Source: Brevundimonas sp. UBA7635
GTDB taxonomy: Bacteria; Pseudomonadota; Alphaproteobacteria; Caulobacterales; Caulobacteraceae
Assembly (NCBI GenBank): GCA_002483865.1
Contig: DLIT01000024.1
Location: 1 to 17,221, forward strand
Direction: 5' to 3'
DNA: 17,221 nucleotides
Shown here: one piece after another, positions 10,185-17,221 of the stretch
How positions within the stretch are numbered: position 1 is the first letter of the stretch
How the letters are laid out: each line of letters starts with the position of its first letter
Notes under the pieces: model-generated
The model's database searches: none
The model's input: the letters and a program-made list of their open reading frames with translations, nothing else
What the model was told of the DNA's origin: nothing
Translations under genes and position numbers: made by a program

Positions 10185-10631
10185 TTACTGGTCCCGTCTC
10201 TCAATGCCTTGCTTATTACGACTGCCCCCAACTACCGCCCCCAGGCAGAGGCTGGCGATCAAGCCGATATTCCAGACATAATAGGCCGAAACATAGGCCC
10301 ATTGCATCAGCTCTTGGTTGCGGACGAAAACATAGTGCGTGGCCAGCACCAGAAATTGGAAGGCCGCGGCAAAAACCAGCCATCTCCGGGTCGATCTGAG
10401 GCATGCGTAGAGCAGGATAAGGAAAACGCCGGTATCGACGGCGATAACCTCCCATGGCGGGTTCACCTTATCAAAGGGTAGAACCGATGACAGACCCCAG
10501 GCGAACAGCAGAACTACGGCAACGGTTTTTTCCCACCAGCCGCCTCGCATAAAGGCCAGAAGACTGGCGAGCACCAGGAACAGCAGGGAAGCAAGAATTA
10601 TGGGTGGCATAGCCTGGCTATACCACCCCAT
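10185..10631 (-). CDS. Small polytopic membrane protein of unknown function
   Basis: I do not recognise this 148-residue protein. It has about five hydrophobic segments, near residues 9-28 (PPIILASLLFLVLASLLAFM), 35-52, 60-79, 84-104 and 112-136, with short polar links and a basic tail (SRNKQGIERRDQ), which suggests a cytoplasmic C-terminus. No catalytic or metal-binding motif is evident. Its start is six bases after the stop of the coiled-coil gene, and its stop is four bases before the XRE start, so the three genes are probably one operon. An ATG seven codons later is an alternative start. It could be an accessory or phage-like membrane protein, but nothing shows this directly. Confidence 0.72.
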   Translation of the reverse strand: MGWYSQAMPPIILASLLFLVLASLLAFMRGGWWEKTVAVVLLFAWGLSSVLPFDKVNPPWEVIAVDTGVFLILLYACLRSTRRWLVFAAAFQFLVLATHYVFVRNQELMQWAYVSAYYVWNIGLIASLCLGAVVGGSRNKQGIERRDQ

Positions 10632-10637
10632 GCTGAT

Positions 10638-11006
10638 TCAGGCTTGGCGGCCCACCAACTGAAGTTGAGCTGATCGCGCACGTCCGCGAATAATGTCCTC
10701 GTCATCCTTGTCCAGGCCGCCCATGTGGATCGAGCGGAAGCGGGACTTGCTCTTCACTTCGGCCAGAGCATGGTGCAGATCGACCATCGCTTTTTGGGCT
10801 TCGATCTGGGCGTTCATGGCGCGCGCCAAAGCATCAAAGGCCGGTTGGCCAACAGTGGCGGCCAGCCCCGCTTCGCGGCGGGTCCTGGTCAGGGTTTGGG
10901 CCAGGCGCGCCAGTCGTTCGATCGACTGGTCCTGGCCGTTCTCAGCGCTTTGCAGGGCGCGTTGAAGCCGTGCGACGAGCCTCGTCGCCTTTTCAATACG
11001 GTTCAT
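10638..11006 (-). CDS. Helical, probably coiled-coil protein of unknown function
   Basis: I do not recognise this 122-residue soluble protein. Residues 1-85 are almost entirely helix-forming, with hydrophobic residues at heptad-like spacing (IEKATRLVARLQRAL, then IERLARLAQTL and LARAMNAQIEAQKAMVDLH), suggesting a coiled coil. A charged segment KSKSRFRSIHMGGLDKDDED and a short basic helix follow. There is no signal peptide or membrane span. The gene follows the LuxR-type gene by 29 bases and precedes the membrane-protein gene by six. Codon third positions are G/C-rich as in neighbouring genes, which supports it being real. Confidence 0.7.
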   Translation of the reverse strand: MNRIEKATRLVARLQRALQSAENGQDQSIERLARLAQTLTRTRREAGLAATVGQPAFDALARAMNAQIEAQKAMVDLHHALAEVKSKSRFRSIHMGGLDKDDEDIIRGRARSAQLQLVGRQA

Positions 11007-11035: not shown

Positions 11036-11668
11036 TCAGCCGCTATACCGCAATCTTTGCAAGAGCATGGTGAACTGCTCGACCCCGGCGATAGCAGTCA
11101 GGATCCAGGCGATGACGGCGGCGAGGCCGAAGACGACGAGGATGCTTCCGAGACGTCCGTATCCAGCAAGGTCGGACTGAAGTGCACGTCCAACATTGCG
11201 GCCCCTATGTAGATGATCTCTGACATCACCCCGCCCGCGGTCATGAAGGGCATCTGCTTGCGCGTTGCCTCCATCAGATGAGCGACCATGTCGCGCTTCG
11301 CCTGGGTGGTCGCCATACGCAGAAGGATGGCTTCCATCTCGGTCCAGCTGACGGGCGGCAGGGCTTCGGAGTGGTGGATCATGGGATGTCCTTTCAGCCC
11401 CCACAACCGACTGGATTTCGGGCACCTTCACCATTGGGAGCGGTTCGTATTGGGACTGGTTCCCAATGTCGGATTCCGCCGCAAATAGCCGAAGAGCGGC
11501 CGCCACCCGGTTTTCCGCCTGGAGCTTCCTGACCGCGTTCTCACAGTGGCGGTCAACCGTGCCGGGCTTGATGCCGAGCTGGCGGGCAATCTGCTTGGAG
11601 CTGAAATGCGAGTGCACCAGCCGCAGACACTGGCGCTCGCGTTCGGTCAGACGAAGGGCTTCATCCAT
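11036..11668 (-). CDS. LuxR-type HTH regulator with C-terminal membrane helix; frame problems
   Basis: The open frame codes for 210 residues. Residues 5-63 are a LuxR/GerE helix-turn-helix (LTERERQCLRLVHSHFSSKQ then LGIKPGTVDRH). The chain ends with a membrane helix, ILVVFGLAAVIAWILTAIAG (about 175-194). HTH, a YEPLPMV-like linker start and a terminal membrane anchor resemble membrane-tethered LuxR-like proteins of Caulobacterales and sphingomonads. GGGAG lies seven bases before the ATG. The oddity is the middle (about residues 95-168): its codons have low third-position G/C (about 41% by my count) and its composition looks out of frame, while another frame there looks strongly coding. The annotated protein may therefore be wrong in the middle. 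See the nested frame at 11098-11382 and the finding. Confidence 0.6.
   Translation of the reverse strand: MDEALRLTERERQCLRLVHSHFSSKQIARQLGIKPGTVDRHCENAVRKLQAENRVAAALRLFAAESDIGNQSQYEPLPMVKVPEIQSVVGAERTSHDPPLRSPAARQLDRDGSHPSAYGDHPGEARHGRSSDGGNAQADALHDRGRGDVRDHLHRGRNVGRALQSDLAGYGRLGSILVVFGLAAVIAWILTAIAGVEQFTMLLQRLRYSG
11098..11382 (-). CDS. Reading frame nested in the LuxR-type gene, unknown function
   Basis: I do not recognise this 94-residue product, yet it looks coding. AAAGGA (11394-11389) lies six bases before its ATG. Over its first 73 codons, 62 end in G or C (about 85%), against about 41% for the overlapping LuxR frame. The protein is sensibly helical: WTEMEAILLRMATTQAKRDM, then AHLMEATRKQ and a hydrophobic MSEIIYIGAAMLDVHF. 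After residue 73 it decays into a Ser/Pro-rich tail, exactly where the LuxR frame becomes a membrane helix with about 85% third-position G/C. A single missing base near 11160 would fuse the first 73 residues to that helix. It may be a separate small membrane protein damaged by a one-base deletion, or a frame-scrambled linker of the LuxR gene. Confidence 0.5.
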   Translation of the reverse strand: MIHHSEALPPVSWTEMEAILLRMATTQAKRDMVAHLMEATRKQMPFMTAGGVMSEIIYIGAAMLDVHFSPTLLDTDVSEASSSSSASPPSSPGS

Positions 11669-11762: not shown

Positions 11763-12299
11763 TCAGGTGACCTGGCGTTTCTCAAGCTTGCGGGCCAGGG
11801 TTCGCCTATGCATCCCCAGTCGACGCGCGGTTTCCGAGATGTTGAAATTGGTCTCGGCCAGGACTTCGTGGATGCGCTCCCACTCCAGGGTCTTGATCGA
11901 GGTGGGCCGAGCGCTGAGGGCCGCCTCAGGGTCGCCGTCTTGCCGCGCAAAGGCCGCTTCGATTTCGTCTGTACCTGCGGGCTTCGCAAGATAGTGGCGC
12001 GCGCCGAGCTTGATCGCCTCCACGGCCGTGGCGATGCTGGCAAAGCCGGTCAGAACGACAATGACCATCTCGGGATCAAAGGCGTGAAGGGCCTGGACAC
12101 AGCTCAGCCCCGAACCTGTTCCCAGTTTCAGATCCACCACGGCATACTCGGGGTGATGGACCTGCAGCCGCTCCAGCATCTGCTCATGGCTGCGCGCCGA
12201 CACCACCTGATAGCCACGGCGTTCGAACGAGCGGCACAGAGTGCGCGAGAAGGACTCGTCGTCCTCGATGATCAGCAGCTGGCGTGGCGCATCGGTCAT
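11763..12299 (-). CDS. regA: Redox response regulator RegA (PrrA/ActR)
   Basis: A 178-residue response regulator of the RegA/PrrA/ActR family, which controls respiration, carbon and nitrogen fixation genes according to redox state. The receiver holds the acidic pair Asp13-Asp14, the phosphate acceptor Asp56 (VVDLKLG), Thr84 (VLTGFAS) and Lys106 (AKPAG). VLTGFASIATAVEAIKLGA is close to identical to the family signature. A short linker leads to the Fis-type helix-turn-helix, NISETARRLGMHRRTLARKL (153-172), also diagnostic. The start at 12299 begins directly with the receiver; an upstream in-frame ATG would add a non-conserved extension inside regB. It lies five bases after regB and is the last gene of the oxidase operon. 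Confidence 0.95.
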   Translation of the reverse strand: MTDAPRQLLIIEDDESFSRTLCRSFERRGYQVVSARSHEQMLERLQVHHPEYAVVDLKLGTGSGLSCVQALHAFDPEMVIVVLTGFASIATAVEAIKLGARHYLAKPAGTDEIEAAFARQDGDPEAALSARPTSIKTLEWERIHEVLAETNFNISETARRLGMHRRTLARKLEKRQVT

Positions 12300-12304
12300 G
12301 GTTT

Positions 12305-13621
12305 CTATCTCGGTGCCAAGGCGTCCATCGGCAAGGACAAACGCACACAGGCCCCGCCGTCGCGACGATTGGCGGCAGTCACGACGCCTCCCATCTTGCG
12401 CAGGACATTGACCAGAAGGAAGAGGCCCAGCCCCGCTCCCGCCCGGTCCTTGGTTGATTGATAAGGTTGTCCAAAGCGCTCCAGAATCTGCGAGGGGAAG
12501 CCCCACCCATCATCGTTGAATTCAATGACCAGCCGTTCGTCATCGATCACCAGGTTCAGGACCACCCGGCGCGCGCCTGCCTCCTGAGCATTGTCCAGAA
12601 GGGCCGAGAAAACCTGCTTCAGGGCCGCATCAGCGATGATGGGCGGGTCCATTGGCGCGGGCACTAGCTGCACCTGAACGTCTGCCCCCACCTTGCCCTG
12701 CCATTCCTCAACCACCTCATCCAGGAAGGTCTGGAGTGACGTCACGACCGGTGCCTGTCCCCTCGCCTCGCCCGCCGACATCAGGATGCCGGTGACAATG
12801 ATCTTGCAGCGCTCGACCTCAGCCTGCATGACCTCAAGGTCGCTGTTCAGGTCGCTGTCGCCCGCGACAATCGGCATCCGCTTCCAGTCACTGAGAATGA
12901 CGGACAAGCTGGCCAGAGGCGTCCCCAGTTCATGGGCGGCACCGGACGCCAGAAGCCCCATACGGACGATGTGATCCTGTTCGGCCGCCTGCTGCCGCGC
13001 CTCGGCCAGATAGGCGTCGCGGGCCCTGAGATTCTTGCTGGTCAGGGTCACGAAGACCACCAGCAGGACCGCGATCAGGGTGAAGTTCACCAGCATGCCG
13101 GACTGCAACAGGTTGACCGTCAACACCTCAGCCTGCGGCAGCTGCAACGGACGGTGCCAGACCGTCAGCAGGCCCATCAGCAGGCTGTTCACCGCGACGA
13201 AGCCCCAGGCATAGGCAGGCTTGAGCAGGACTGCCGCCAGGACGATCTGCATCACATAGAGCGGCGCAAAGGGATTGGTCGAACCCCCGGTGAAGAACAG
13301 CAACCAGGTCAGAGCCGCCACATCGACACTGAGCGCCAGCAGCAGCTCGACATCGGGCACACCCTGACGCCGACGCGTCAGTGGCGCGCTGACCAGGTTG
13401 ATGACGATCAAGGCCGCCGGGGCCAGCATCAACCAGACCAGCGGCAAGTCGATCTTCATGCCCCAGTGAACAATGCCGATCGTCAGCACCTGGCCGGCCA
13501 CAGCCAGCCAACGTAGCTGGATCAGCAGCAGCATGTTGCGGCGGCCCGCCCCCGCCGGGGACACTGGCACATTCAGGTCCTGGCCCAGGCCCAGAACCGC
13601 CCGCAGCTGCCTCATAAGCAT
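12305..13621 (-). CDS. regB: Redox sensor histidine kinase RegB (PrrB/ActS)
   Basis: A 438-residue membrane kinase that phosphorylates RegA when the quinone pool is reduced. The N-terminal half has about six membrane helices. GGSTNPF (112-118) matches the G-G-x-x-N-P-F ubiquinone-binding motif of RegB. The H-box GAAHELGTPLAS places the phosphorylated His at 230. Cys272 (VERCKIIVTGIL) corresponds to the redox-active Cys of Rhodobacter RegB (Cys265), which forms an intermolecular disulfide. The ATP-binding domain has the N-box DNAQEAG (343-349), NDDGWGF and GAGLGL. Its ATG shares a base with the SURF1 stop codon (TGATG). All signalling residues are intact, so an active redox sensor is expected. 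Confidence 0.95.
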   Translation of the reverse strand: MLMRQLRAVLGLGQDLNVPVSPAGAGRRNMLLLIQLRWLAVAGQVLTIGIVHWGMKIDLPLVWLMLAPAALIVINLVSAPLTRRRQGVPDVELLLALSVDVAALTWLLFFTGGSTNPFAPLYVMQIVLAAVLLKPAYAWGFVAVNSLLMGLLTVWHRPLQLPQAEVLTVNLLQSGMLVNFTLIAVLLVVFVTLTSKNLRARDAYLAEARQQAAEQDHIVRMGLLASGAAHELGTPLASLSVILSDWKRMPIVAGDSDLNSDLEVMQAEVERCKIIVTGILMSAGEARGQAPVVTSLQTFLDEVVEEWQGKVGADVQVQLVPAPMDPPIIADAALKQVFSALLDNAQEAGARRVVLNLVIDDERLVIEFNDDGWGFPSQILERFGQPYQSTKDRAGAGLGLFLLVNVLRKMGGVVTAANRRDGGACVRLSLPMDALAPR

Positions 13622-14367
13622 CAGTCGTCACCCAAGCGACGGCGACGGTTCTCGCGGAGGAACAGCCACAGGCCGAACAGGCTCATGCCCGCCAGGCCGA
13701 ACCAGGTCAGGGCATAGACCAGGTGATGGTTGGTGAAGCGGACGACGGTCATGCCCCCGCGTGGCCACTCCAGCCCAGACGCCTCGGCATCAATGAAATA
13801 GGGCGCGACCGGCCCGGTCAGGCCGCGGGTCTGAACAATGGCCGCGACATCGCGCGAGTACCAGCGGTCGCCTGCCGGGTCATTGTCGCGCAGGAAGCCG
13901 CCGTCCGGCTCAGTGATCCGCAGCAGGCCCGTGACGGTAACCGGTCCGGCGGCCTGGCCATCCTGCCGTTGCGCGGCCTCAGCCTGTGCCGGGGTAACAA
14001 AGCCCCGGTTGACCAGGATCGTAAAGCCCCGATCAGCCCGAAGCGGCGTCAGGACCCAGTATCCGGCCCCGATCTCGGTTACCGCCTTGGTCAAGGTTTC
14101 ACGCGAATGGTCGTAGGTGCCCCTGACCTGGACACGGCGATACTGGTCATCGGCCCGGGTGACGGTGATGGAGGGGGGCGGGGCCGCAACCGGGGCCATT
14201 TCGACCCGCGTATTGACCTGCTCTATCAGGTCAAGCTTCCAGAACAGCCGCTGGACCTGCCAGACCCCCAGGGCGCAGAAGCCGGCAAAAAGGATGGCAA
14301 AGCCGACATAGGCTAGGGCCATCCCCTTGCGCGACAACGAATGGGGGCGATCCGGCTGTTGGGTCAA
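13621..14367 (-). CDS. SURF1-family oxidase assembly protein
   Basis: A 248-residue inner-membrane protein of the SURF1 (Shy1) family, which helps insert heme into subunit I of heme-copper oxidases. The first helix (about 16-38) leads into GVWQVQR, matching the family motif G-x-W-Q-x-x-R. A large periplasmic domain follows, with GYWVLTPL and ILVNRGFV, and the second helix is announced by TNHHLVYALTWFGLAG. I chose the TTG at 14367 because GGAG lies six bases upstream; the ATG at 14322 would start inside the first helix and upstream in-frame starts overlap cyoD. It lies 20 bases after cyoD and overlaps regB by one base. Linkage to a quinol oxidase suggests it serves CyoB. Confidence 0.9.
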   Translation of the reverse strand: MTQQPDRPHSLSRKGMALAYVGFAILFAGFCALGVWQVQRLFWKLDLIEQVNTRVEMAPVAAPPPSITVTRADDQYRRVQVRGTYDHSRETLTKAVTEIGAGYWVLTPLRADRGFTILVNRGFVTPAQAEAAQRQDGQAAGPVTVTGLLRITEPDGGFLRDNDPAGDRWYSRDVAAIVQTRGLTGPVAPYFIDAEASGLEWPRGGMTVVRFTNHHLVYALTWFGLAGMSLFGLWLFLRENRRRRLGDD

Positions 14368-14387
14368 CGGCTGCTCCGAAGCCTGGG

Positions 14388-14786
14388 TCAGCCCATACCC
14401 TGCATGGTGTGGACGGGCATCATATTGGTGTTCAGGTGATACATGACCCACACCGAACCGGCGATGCAAATCACCACGATGACGATGGTGAAGATCAGGG
14501 CCAGCATGTTCCAGCCTCCCTCTGACTTGGGCGTCATGTGAAGAAAATAGACCATGTGGACCACGATCTGCACCACGGCTGCCGCCACGATCAACAGGCC
14601 CGTCGTCTGGGTCGGCAGGACGCCGGACATCACCAGACCGAACGGAATGATCGTCAGGATAACCGACAGGACAAAGCCGATCATATAGCTCTTGAACGAA
14701 CCGTGATCATGCTCGTCGTGGTGGTGCTCATCATGGCTGTGAGCGTGCGGGTCCACGGTCTGATCTTTCATGGTGTCGGCGCTCAT
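14388..14786 (-). CDS. cyoD: Cytochrome bo3 ubiquinol oxidase subunit IV
   Basis: A 132-residue small subunit of the bo3 oxidase with three membrane helices: [20 protein letters not shown] (about 33-52), [20 protein letters not shown] and [20 protein letters not shown]. The motif [13 protein letters not shown] and the downstream W-N are typical of CyoD. In E. coli this subunit assists assembly and stability of the complex rather than catalysis. The N-terminal 30 residues are unusually rich in His: eight between positions 14 and 28, mixed with Asp and Glu. Its ATG overlaps the cyoC stop by four bases (ATGA). Confidence 0.93.
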
Positions 14787-15427
14787 CTCAGCATCCCGAA
14801 CAGATAGACAAAGGTGAAGACGCCGATCCAGATGACGTCAAGGAAGTGCCAGAACAGGCTCAGGCACATCAGGCGGCGCTTGTTGGCCGGGATCAGGCCC
14901 TTCCACTTGACCTGAACCATCAGCGTTACCAGCCAGATGATGCCGAAGGTCACGTGCAGGCCGTGGGTGCCGACCAGGATGAAGAAGGCCGACAGGAAGG
15001 CACTGCGCTGGGGCGTCGCCCCGACGTGGAACAGGTGGCCGAACTCGTAGAGCTCGATCCCCAGGAAAGCCAGGCCGAACAGTCCCGTTATCGCCAGCCA
15101 GATCAGGACCTGGCGGATGTTGTTCTTCACCATGGCCAGCATGGCGAAGCCATAGGTGATCGATGAGAACAACAGCATGGCCGTGTTCAGGGCGATCAGG
15201 TTCAGGTCGAACAGGTCGCTTGGCGAAGGACCGGCCGCGTAGTTGCCGCCCAAGACGGCATAGACGGCAAACAGGATCGCAAAGATGAGGCAGTCGCTCA
15301 TCAGGTACATCCAGAAGCCCAGCATGGTGCTGTGGCCTTCCGGATGGTGCGGCTCCGTGACGGGGTGGAACAGCGGATTACCGTTCTCATCCACGTAGTC
15401 AGGGTTAATAGCAGGCGCGTGGCTCAT
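14783..15427 (-). CDS. cyoC: Cytochrome bo3 ubiquinol oxidase subunit III
   Basis: A 214-residue integral membrane subunit with five helices. The stretch [21 protein letters not shown] is the typical first helix of CyoC; GIELYEF and [17 protein letters not shown] contain the conserved Glu and His of the subunit III fold. The chain ends [20 protein letters not shown], another hallmark. It does not carry redox cofactors; it stabilises the oxidase. The start follows cyoB by four bases, with GGGG seven bases ahead of the ATG. It is co-transcribed with and overlaps cyoD. Confidence 0.96.
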
Positions 15428-15431
15428 CGAT

Positions 15432-17221
15432 TCACCCCTTGGCTGCGGTTACGGCCGCCAGGGCCTTGGTCCGCGCGTCTTCCGTGGCCACGACCTCTTC
15501 GGCCGGGATGTAGTAGTCGCGCTTGTAGTTGAACGTATGGAAGATGGCGTAGCCAATGATCGCCGCGAAGCTGATCGCCGCCAGCCACCACATGTACCAG
15601 ATCAGGGCAAAGCCGCAGATCAGGGACAGCATGGACAGGATCACGCCAGCCCCGGTGTTCGAGGGCATGTGGACCGCCTGGAATCCTTCCAGGGGACGCT
15701 GATAGCCGCGGGCCTTCATGTTCCACCAGGCATCACCGTCGTGGATGACGGGCGTCTTGGCAAAGTTGTAGGCTGGCGGAGGCGACGAGGTCGCCCATTC
15801 CAGAGTGCGGCCATCCCACGGATCGCCCGTCTCATCACGCAGCTTGTCACGATTGATGATCGAGACGGCAAACTGGATCAGCATGGCCAGGATTCCCACG
15901 GCAATGATACCGGCACCGACGGCGGCGATGACGAACCAGATCTGATAGGCGGGGTCATCAAAGACCCGCATGCGGCGCGTCACGCCCATGAAGCCCAGGA
16001 TGTAGATCGGGGCAAAAGCGACCCAGAAACCGACAACCCAGCACCAGAAGCTGACCAGGCCCCATTTCTTCTCCAGACGGAAGCCGAAGGCCTTGGGCCA
16101 CCAGTAGTTGATCGCAGCGAACAGGCCGAACAGCACGCCGCCGATGATGACATTGTGGAAGTGGGCGATCAGGAACAGCGAGTTGTGCAGCACAAAGTCT
16201 GCTGGCGGAACGGCCAGCATGACGCCGGTCATGCCACCAATGACGAAGGTCAGCATGAAGGCGATCAACCACATCATCGGCAGCTCGAAACGGATCCGGC
16301 CGCGATACATGGTGAAGAGCCAGTTGAAGATCTTCGCCCCTGTCGGAATCGAGATGATCATCGTCGTGATCCCGAAGAACGAGTTCACTGACGCACCCGA
16401 GCCCATGGTGAAGAAGTGGTGCAGCCACACCAAGTACGACAGGATGGTGATGACCACCGTGGCGTAAACCATCGAGGTATAGCCAAACAGCTTCTTGCGC
16501 GAGAAGGTTGAGGCCACCTCCGAGAAGACGCCGAACAGCGGCAGGATCAGGATGTAGACCTCGGGGTGACCCCAGATCCAGATCAGGTTCACGTACATCA
16601 TCGGGTTGCCGCCGAAGTCGTTCGTGAAGAAGTTGGTGCCGATGTAGCGGTCGGCCGACAGCAGGACGAGCGTAGCCGTCAAAATCGGGAAGGAGGCGAC
16701 GATCAGGACGTTGGAGCACAGCGACGTCCAGGTGAAGACCGGCAGCTTCATCATGCCCATGCCCGGCGCACGCATCTTGACGATGGTGGCGATCAGGTTG
16801 ATCCCGGACAGGGTCGTACCGACCCCCGCGATCTGCAGGGCCCAGATATAATAGTCCATGCCGACGCCGGGGCTGTAGCCGATGCCGGACAGCGGCGGAT
16901 AGGCCAGCCAGCCGGTGCGGGCAAACTCACCCACGAACAGCGAGGCCATGATCAGGATGGCCCCGGCCGTCGTCATCCAGAACGAGAAGTTGTTCAGGAA
17001 GGGGAAGGAGACGTCGCGCGCGCCGATCTGCAGCGGGACCAGATAGTTCATCAGGCCCGTGATCATCGGCATGGCCACGAAGAAGATCATGATCACGCCA
17101 TGGGCGGTGAATATCTGGTCGTAATGGTGGGCGTTCAGATAGCCCTCGGACCCGCCAAAGGCGATGGCCTGCTGCAGACGCATCATGATCGCATCGGCAA
17201 AGCCGCGCAGGAACATGATCA
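15432..17221 (-). CDS. cyoB: Cytochrome bo3 ubiquinol oxidase subunit I, 5' end outside window
   Basis: The catalytic subunit that oxidises ubiquinol, reduces oxygen to water and pumps protons. About 595 residues are visible; by comparison with E. coli CyoB roughly 67 N-terminal residues lie beyond the right edge, so the first ATG in the window (17216) is internal. Quinol-site residues are present: Arg and Asp of [10 protein letters not shown], and His and Gln of [11 protein letters not shown], which also holds a low-spin heme ligand. [12 protein letters not shown] has the CuB His, the cross-linked Tyr and the gating Glu; [10 protein letters not shown] has two CuB His; FLIAHFHNV has the heme ligands. 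The K-channel Lys ([10 protein letters not shown]) and D-channel Asp ([12 protein letters not shown]) are intact. It is therefore a quinol oxidase with full proton channels. Confidence 0.97.

Follow-up and report, generated by a model that had tools for sequence, protein, structure and literature searches.

Organization of the locus

The window, i.e. the whole stretch of 17,221 nucleotides from Brevundimonas sp. UBA7635 analyzed here, harbors on its minus strand a gene of 210 codons (11036..11668), denoted the host gene and read in frame 0, which runs from 11668 to 11036 without internal stop and encodes a LuxR-type helix-turn-helix (HTH) domain, a disordered linker and a C-terminal transmembrane (TM) helix. 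The HTH domain comprises host residues 7–59 (11492..11650, minus strand) and is assigned to the GerE family (Pfam PF00196) with an E-value of 2e-15 and a score of 56.6 bits on the 210-residue protein, the curated cut-off being 23.5. Among the 14 Pfam families listed for this protein the autoinducer-binding domain of quorum-sensing LuxR receptors is absent and the HTH domain begins already at residue 7, so that the host does not classify as such a receptor. The linker (residues 70–165; 11174..11461, minus strand), mostly read in both frames, is predicted to be disordered and contains no cysteine in this copy. It is followed by the TM helix (11081..11146, minus strand), the first part of which doubles as the Ser/Pro-rich tail of a second, nested gene. 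In the AF2 model of the host the HTH domain is confident (pLDDT 97–98 for residues 11–60), the linker mostly falls below a pLDDT of 50 and a helix extends from residue 170 to 208. Combining a predicted DNA-binding domain and a predicted TM region in one chain, the host would qualify as a transmembrane transcription regulator.

The nested gene (11098..11382, minus strand) lies entirely within the host gene in the +1 frame relative to it. It starts with an ATG at 11382, ends with a stop codon at 11100-11098 and thus spans 285 bases, or 94 amino acids plus stop. Ahead of it is a Shine-Dalgarno site, GAAAGGA (11389..11395, minus strand), made up of ordinary codons in frame 0. AF2 on 54 sequences predicts three helices for residues about 10–66 (11185..11355, minus strand), with pLDDT values of 96–98 for residues 11–60 and 89 for residues 61–70, and is less sure of the tail lying opposite the TM reading. 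In frame 0, the G/C content at third codon positions (GC3) amounts to 0.74 for the HTH part, drops to 0.42 at 11383-11168 and rises to 0.86 for the TM part, while the nested frame reaches 0.85 over 11382-11167. A preliminary description of the locus had pointed to a coding signature that switches frame, to a nested frame with its own AAAGGA and ATG, and to a return of the first frame as membrane helix; these features are borne out by the values given above and, for the helix, by a Kyte-Doolittle maximum of 2.73.

Immediately downstream, a helical gene of 122 amino acids (10638..11006, minus strand) resembles the gene following the pair in many homologous loci, and it is succeeded by a hydrophobic, multi-TM gene of 148 amino acids (10185..10631, minus strand) similar to a GG.WER-type gene. 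By motif search, 50 of 130 loci have a GG.WER-type gene downstream; the 148-residue protein itself reads GGWWEK and falls outside this pattern. One Brevundimonas subfamily carries a GGH.ER membrane gene after the pair in place of the 122-residue type. No Pfam family was found for the downstream helical and membrane genes. Upstream of the pair, 11763-17216 (minus strand) encodes a Fis-type HTH response regulator, a PilS-like histidine kinase, SURF1 and the oxidase subunits IV, III and I (quinol/cytochrome oxidase).

The arrangement in homologous loci

In a set of 101 genomes, ten congeners match the 210-residue frame near full length (E-values 3e-63 to 5e-39, 42–58% identity), G002 matches it in two frames, and weaker full-length matches come after; for the nested frame, matches are present in 18 other genomes, all of them Brevundimonas. 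With models built from the matches, 143 nested-gene copies were gathered and checked for distinctness (83 + 60), the first 83 stemming from Brevundimonas, Phenylobacterium and genus g19. In 134 of the 143 copies, which share ancestry and hence are not independent counts, a single reading frame, set one base ahead of the nested one, is open and carries the HTH domain upstream and the TM helix downstream, i.e. two frames are open over the overlap. The arrangement is also present in closed genomes, e.g. G008, G117 and G148. All 14 loci retrieved later display it as well; one duplicates an earlier locus (L229 and L087), leaving 13 new ones, and five represent additional genera of the Caulobacteraceae (g329 twice, g332, g333 and g335). 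Their frame-0 linkers contain no cysteine over the matched nested stretch, which in three of them (L222, L224, L230) is only 20–27 residues long.

Nine of the 143 copies deviate. L119 runs into a contig end, L123 (a metagenome assembly) has an indel within the nested gene, and an indel at the nested/TM junction of L014 leaves the TM helix in neither frame. The HTH domain sits in a different frame in L165 and L180, and is degenerate in L164. In the remaining three (L039, L161, L163) the nested gene is intact and HTH domain and TM helix are both absent. The nested gene can therefore stand alone, and HTH and TM are jointly absent in these cases; the genomes concerned (G005, G130 and G165) each carry an intact pair elsewhere (L153, L171, L166).

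In the genome that contains L164 the whole pair occurs twice in tandem, about 600 bases apart. L164 itself is the second copy, and the first (L133) has intact frames and a shortened nested gene. Three further loci counted among the 134 (L149, L157, L158) contain two tandem nested domains in one nested frame, together with a longer host linker. In these the host frame is open over both nested domains.

The statistics below refer to 130 clean copies, 74 from Brevundimonas and 56 others; the nine exceptions, L133 and the three copies with doubled domains were left out (13 of 143).

The preliminary description had considered that the locus may consist of a regulator gene and the gene of a small membrane protein, brought into their present relation by two one-base deletions; the run of five C at 11398-11402 of the plus strand (five G on the minus strand), singled out as the site of one of them, is present. 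That these would be sequencing or assembly errors might be suggested by the draft state of the source genome (2.16 Mb in 187 contigs, 66.9% complete) and by the single indels apparent in some copies (L123, L165, L180). However, the same frame relation recurs in 134 of the 143 copies from many species, the closed genomes included, so that errors of this kind are next to inconceivable as the explanation. Judged from the homologous copies, the frame switch is real and not a sequencing error.

Constraint on the host frame

Frame 0 is free of stop codons across the nested domain in all 74 Brevundimonas and all 56 other copies, compared with 100.5 and 71.8 stops, about 172 altogether, expected from synonymous resampling of the nested codons. 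For the third frame, 276 and 124 stops are counted versus expectations of 249.1 and 102.3. As a control, 97 and 110 long ordinary genes of relatives were taken from ten 20-kb stretches per set. Their shifted frames hold 0.62 and 0.68 of the stops of the shuffled expectation, and among windows of 80 codons, 207 out of 463 and 334 out of 530 are free of them. Since ordinary genes are thus also short of shifted-frame stops, shuffling alone overstates the surprise; the corrected expectation is about 110 stops, with none observed. Among 20 representatives with less than 50% identity to each other none has a frame-0 stop, and 18 are free of cysteine.

The shortage of cysteine in frame 0, which was spotted in the composition data and tested afterwards rather than planned, is pronounced. 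Over the nested domain 3 cysteines are found in the Brevundimonas copies (79.5 expected) and 1 in the others (34.1 expected), in total 4 compared with 113.6 under permutation of the codons of each amino acid; the shifted frames of ordinary genes reach 0.78 and 0.74 of expectation. Cysteine-free copies account for 71 of 74 and 55 of 56, as against 171 of 463 and 291 of 530 ordinary windows. Such a shortage makes sense only if frame 0 is made into protein. Stops and cysteines, both compared with ordinary genes, hence show that the overlapping part of the host frame is under coding constraint. Frame 0 also has fewer Val and Pro and more Ser and Phe, which was not used as evidence because ordinary genes deviate likewise. 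Lysine is nearly absent from frame 0 in Phenylobacterium-type copies (1 versus 25.6 expected; ordinary genes 0.95 of expectation).

From the HTH motif to the TM helix, 37 different distances occur among 125 copies, every one of them in frame. A frame-0 ATG, GTG or TTG within 30 codons ahead of the TM helix is found in only 27 of the 130 copies, in 5 of these as ATG. These starts bear on the notion that HTH, nested and TM parts are three separately translated pieces and that the middle of frame 0 is open for no reason. It draws on the copies in which the HTH domain lies in another frame (L165, L180) or is degenerate (L164) and the nested and TM parts stay. Besides the scarcity of starts, it is contradicted by a frame 0 with no stops and nearly no cysteine, by homologues lacking the nested gene, in which HTH and TM are fused, and by the stand-alone nested copies, all three of which are without both HTH and TM. 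Three independent pieces are therefore regarded as very unlikely.

Constraint on the nested frame

In the nested frame, differences per site at codon positions 1, 2 and 3 amount to 0.166, 0.125 and 0.324 for 99 Brevundimonas pairs and to 0.194, 0.143 and 0.375 for 899 other pairs. This excess at third positions, together with the predicted fold, indicates coding constraint on the nested frame. Third positions of the downstream gene differ at 0.397 and 0.412 per site, so that those of the nested gene are only slightly less variable, which is expected if frame 0 imposes a mild constraint.

An alignment of orthologues had been put forward in the preliminary description as a refuting test, the overlapping reading to be abandoned if the full 210-residue frame were encoded with a conserved middle and the nested frame were not conserved. 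The full frame is indeed encoded by orthologues; in its middle, however, it is conserved less well than the nested frame: over the overlap, identity averages 0.76 (Brevundimonas) and 0.75 (other) in the nested frame and 0.59 and 0.54 in frame 0.

Ahead of the nested start, the match to the 16S-complementary sequence averages 5.3 nt in the homologues (maximum 9), compared with 3.9 nt for the best start of the two other frames, where both means are inflated by taking the best-scoring start per copy, some picks are plainly false starts and L089 gave no start. On codon signature, substitution pattern, Shine-Dalgarno site and predicted fold, the nested open frame looks like a real gene.

The same four features oppose the idea that the host frame alone is genuine and the nested one arises as a by-product, an idea to which the known DNA-binding domain of the host and the annotation of some public proteins solely as host-frame HTH regulators lend some credit. 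It also has to account for the survival of the nested gene without host in the three stand-alone copies and for the doubled nested domains of L149, L157 and L158, and appears extremely improbable. A single gene with a compensated double frameshift, likewise entertained in the preliminary description, does not agree with a frame 0 that is stop-free in 130 of 130 copies and a nested frame that keeps its start, Shine-Dalgarno site, codons and predicted fold.

Programmed ribosomal frameshifting, finally, would use the two switches for the production of HTH-nested or nested-TM fusion proteins, and a Shine-Dalgarno-like site is situated at the first switch. Yet this site is succeeded by a conventional start codon, and the first switch offers no frame-0 stop to stall on. 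Near the second switch, the nested/TM junction, a heptamer of the form X XXY YYZ (Y = A or T), the only type and the only place covered by the search, is present in the nested frame of 0 of 130 copies, in agreement with the earlier remark that no classical slippery heptamer is visible. Frameshifting is thus considered highly improbable.

The preferred reading is therefore that of a true overlapping gene pair, which had been the third option of the preliminary description. Conservation of and constraint on both frames across the homologues are supported by the data, and the locus most probably represents a same-strand, fully nested pair encoding a membrane-tethered regulator and a small three-helix protein, a reading to which we assign a probability of roughly 0.88 on the comparative sequence data.

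Loci without the nested gene and distribution of the family

P0118, a Brevundimonas protein filed as B. goettingensis, and the loci L186, L187, L188, L192 and L193 encode the same HTH type and a TM helix and lack the nested gene, the two ends being connected by a short linker. In an HTH-based tree, five short-linker rows are placed among nested-bearing rows, and the short-linker state needs four changes, at least two of which are forced by well-supported branches; the tree is small (61 columns, 37 rows) and of unknown root. From this topology the nested gene has likely been lost more than once.

Matches to the nested model are found in at least 71 of 131 Brevundimonas genomes (at most 60 of 131 are without match) and in at least 178 of 299 Caulobacteraceae genomes from 12 of 22 genera, some of them weak (E-values 1e-4 to 1e-7). 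Across a sample of Alphaproteobacteria with few Caulobacteraceae, at least 2 of 385 genomes match, both Brevundimonas. All of these are lower bounds, since only the best first-look candidates of each genome were scored, and they count matches to the nested model, the nested arrangement itself having been checked in the fetched loci.

Proposed mechanism

In the overlapping pair, the host would act as a single-pass transmembrane transcription regulator, its cytoplasmic LuxR-type HTH domain connected through about 100 disordered residues to a TM helix at the C-terminus. From the internal Shine-Dalgarno site and ATG, ribosomes would translate the linker DNA in the +1 frame into a small three-helix protein of its own, and we infer that both proteins are translated from one mRNA. 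Within the shared stretch the nested frame would dictate the residues, and the host frame would need only to be open, flexible and nearly free of cysteine. Towards the 3' end the roles would be reversed, with the TM reading dominant and the nested protein finishing in its Ser/Pro-rich tail.

More speculatively, the nested protein may be a partner of the regulator that encodes it, binding or tuning its host. The near-constant co-location (134 of 143) and the intact pair that accompanies all three stand-alone nested copies in their genomes are in favor of a partnership, the existence of regulators without nested gene is against it. The same observations bear with opposite sign on the alternative that the nested protein is real but unrelated to the regulator, the overlap being a historical accident kept by compression. 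In five loci examined the regulator does without the nested gene, and comS inside srfA functions independently of its host, as far as described in the available part of PMC12350097; nevertheless, the nested gene lies within the host gene in nearly all copies, and the genomes with stand-alone copies hold the intact pair too. Unrelated function is accordingly given an appreciable but clearly minor chance. Returning to the partnership, the pair might constitute an ancient overlapping-gene family of the Caulobacteraceae, in which the disordered tether stays long for the sake of the dedicated partner housed in its DNA, regulator and partner being made from one mRNA and inseparable by recombination; we put this forward tentatively, at slightly less than even odds.

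Comparison with known systems

The pair resembles comS within srfA of Bacillus subtilis in being chromosomal and in comprising a small out-of-frame gene within a larger one on the same strand (PMC12350097, available part). In that system, however, the host serves surfactin synthesis and the nested gene competence, whereas the host of the present pair is predicted to be a membrane-tethered regulator; and, unlike comS/srfA as far as covered by that part, this pair recurs in paralogues and several genera. The Rz/Rz1 spanins of phage lambda share with it the +1 nesting, the membrane-protein host and the fate of being often overlooked by gene callers (PMC6139136, as excerpted). In contrast to Rz1, a viral outer-membrane lipoprotein according to the same excerpt, the nested N-terminus is devoid of a lipobox cysteine, and no phage function beyond HTH was found in five proteins tested.

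With transmembrane transcription regulators the host has in common a DNA-binding domain and a TM region in one protein, the single-pass form being reported as the most prevalent (PMC10269533, in part). It differs from the regulators described there in that the DNA of its linker holds a second gene; the main text of that report contains 0 occurrences of LuxR, and the passages considered do not speak of nested genes. The short-linker HTH-TM proteins of the P0118 type share with one nested-bearing subfamily the kind of HTH domain, the TM end and the membrane gene further downstream, but their linker has about 50 residues and no nested gene. An earlier report of the present pair was not found in the open-access literature searched.

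Gene callers choose either frame of the pair, with nested proteins listed as hypothetical and their hosts as HTH regulators. Extended overlaps between bacterial genes on the same strand have been regarded as annotation errors for the most part, and in one survey all 715 co-directional overlaps of more than 60 bases checked by hand fell into misannotation classes (PMC2478687, in the part available). Against this background the present case comprises a nested gene of 285 bases, more than 100 homologous pairs and, for each of the two frames, signals that are independent. Built-in controls are provided by nested genes that stand alone, by regulators lacking a nested gene and by doubled domains, and the pair is open to testing in culturable bacteria. 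It suggests that a disordered linker can house a second gene at little cost.
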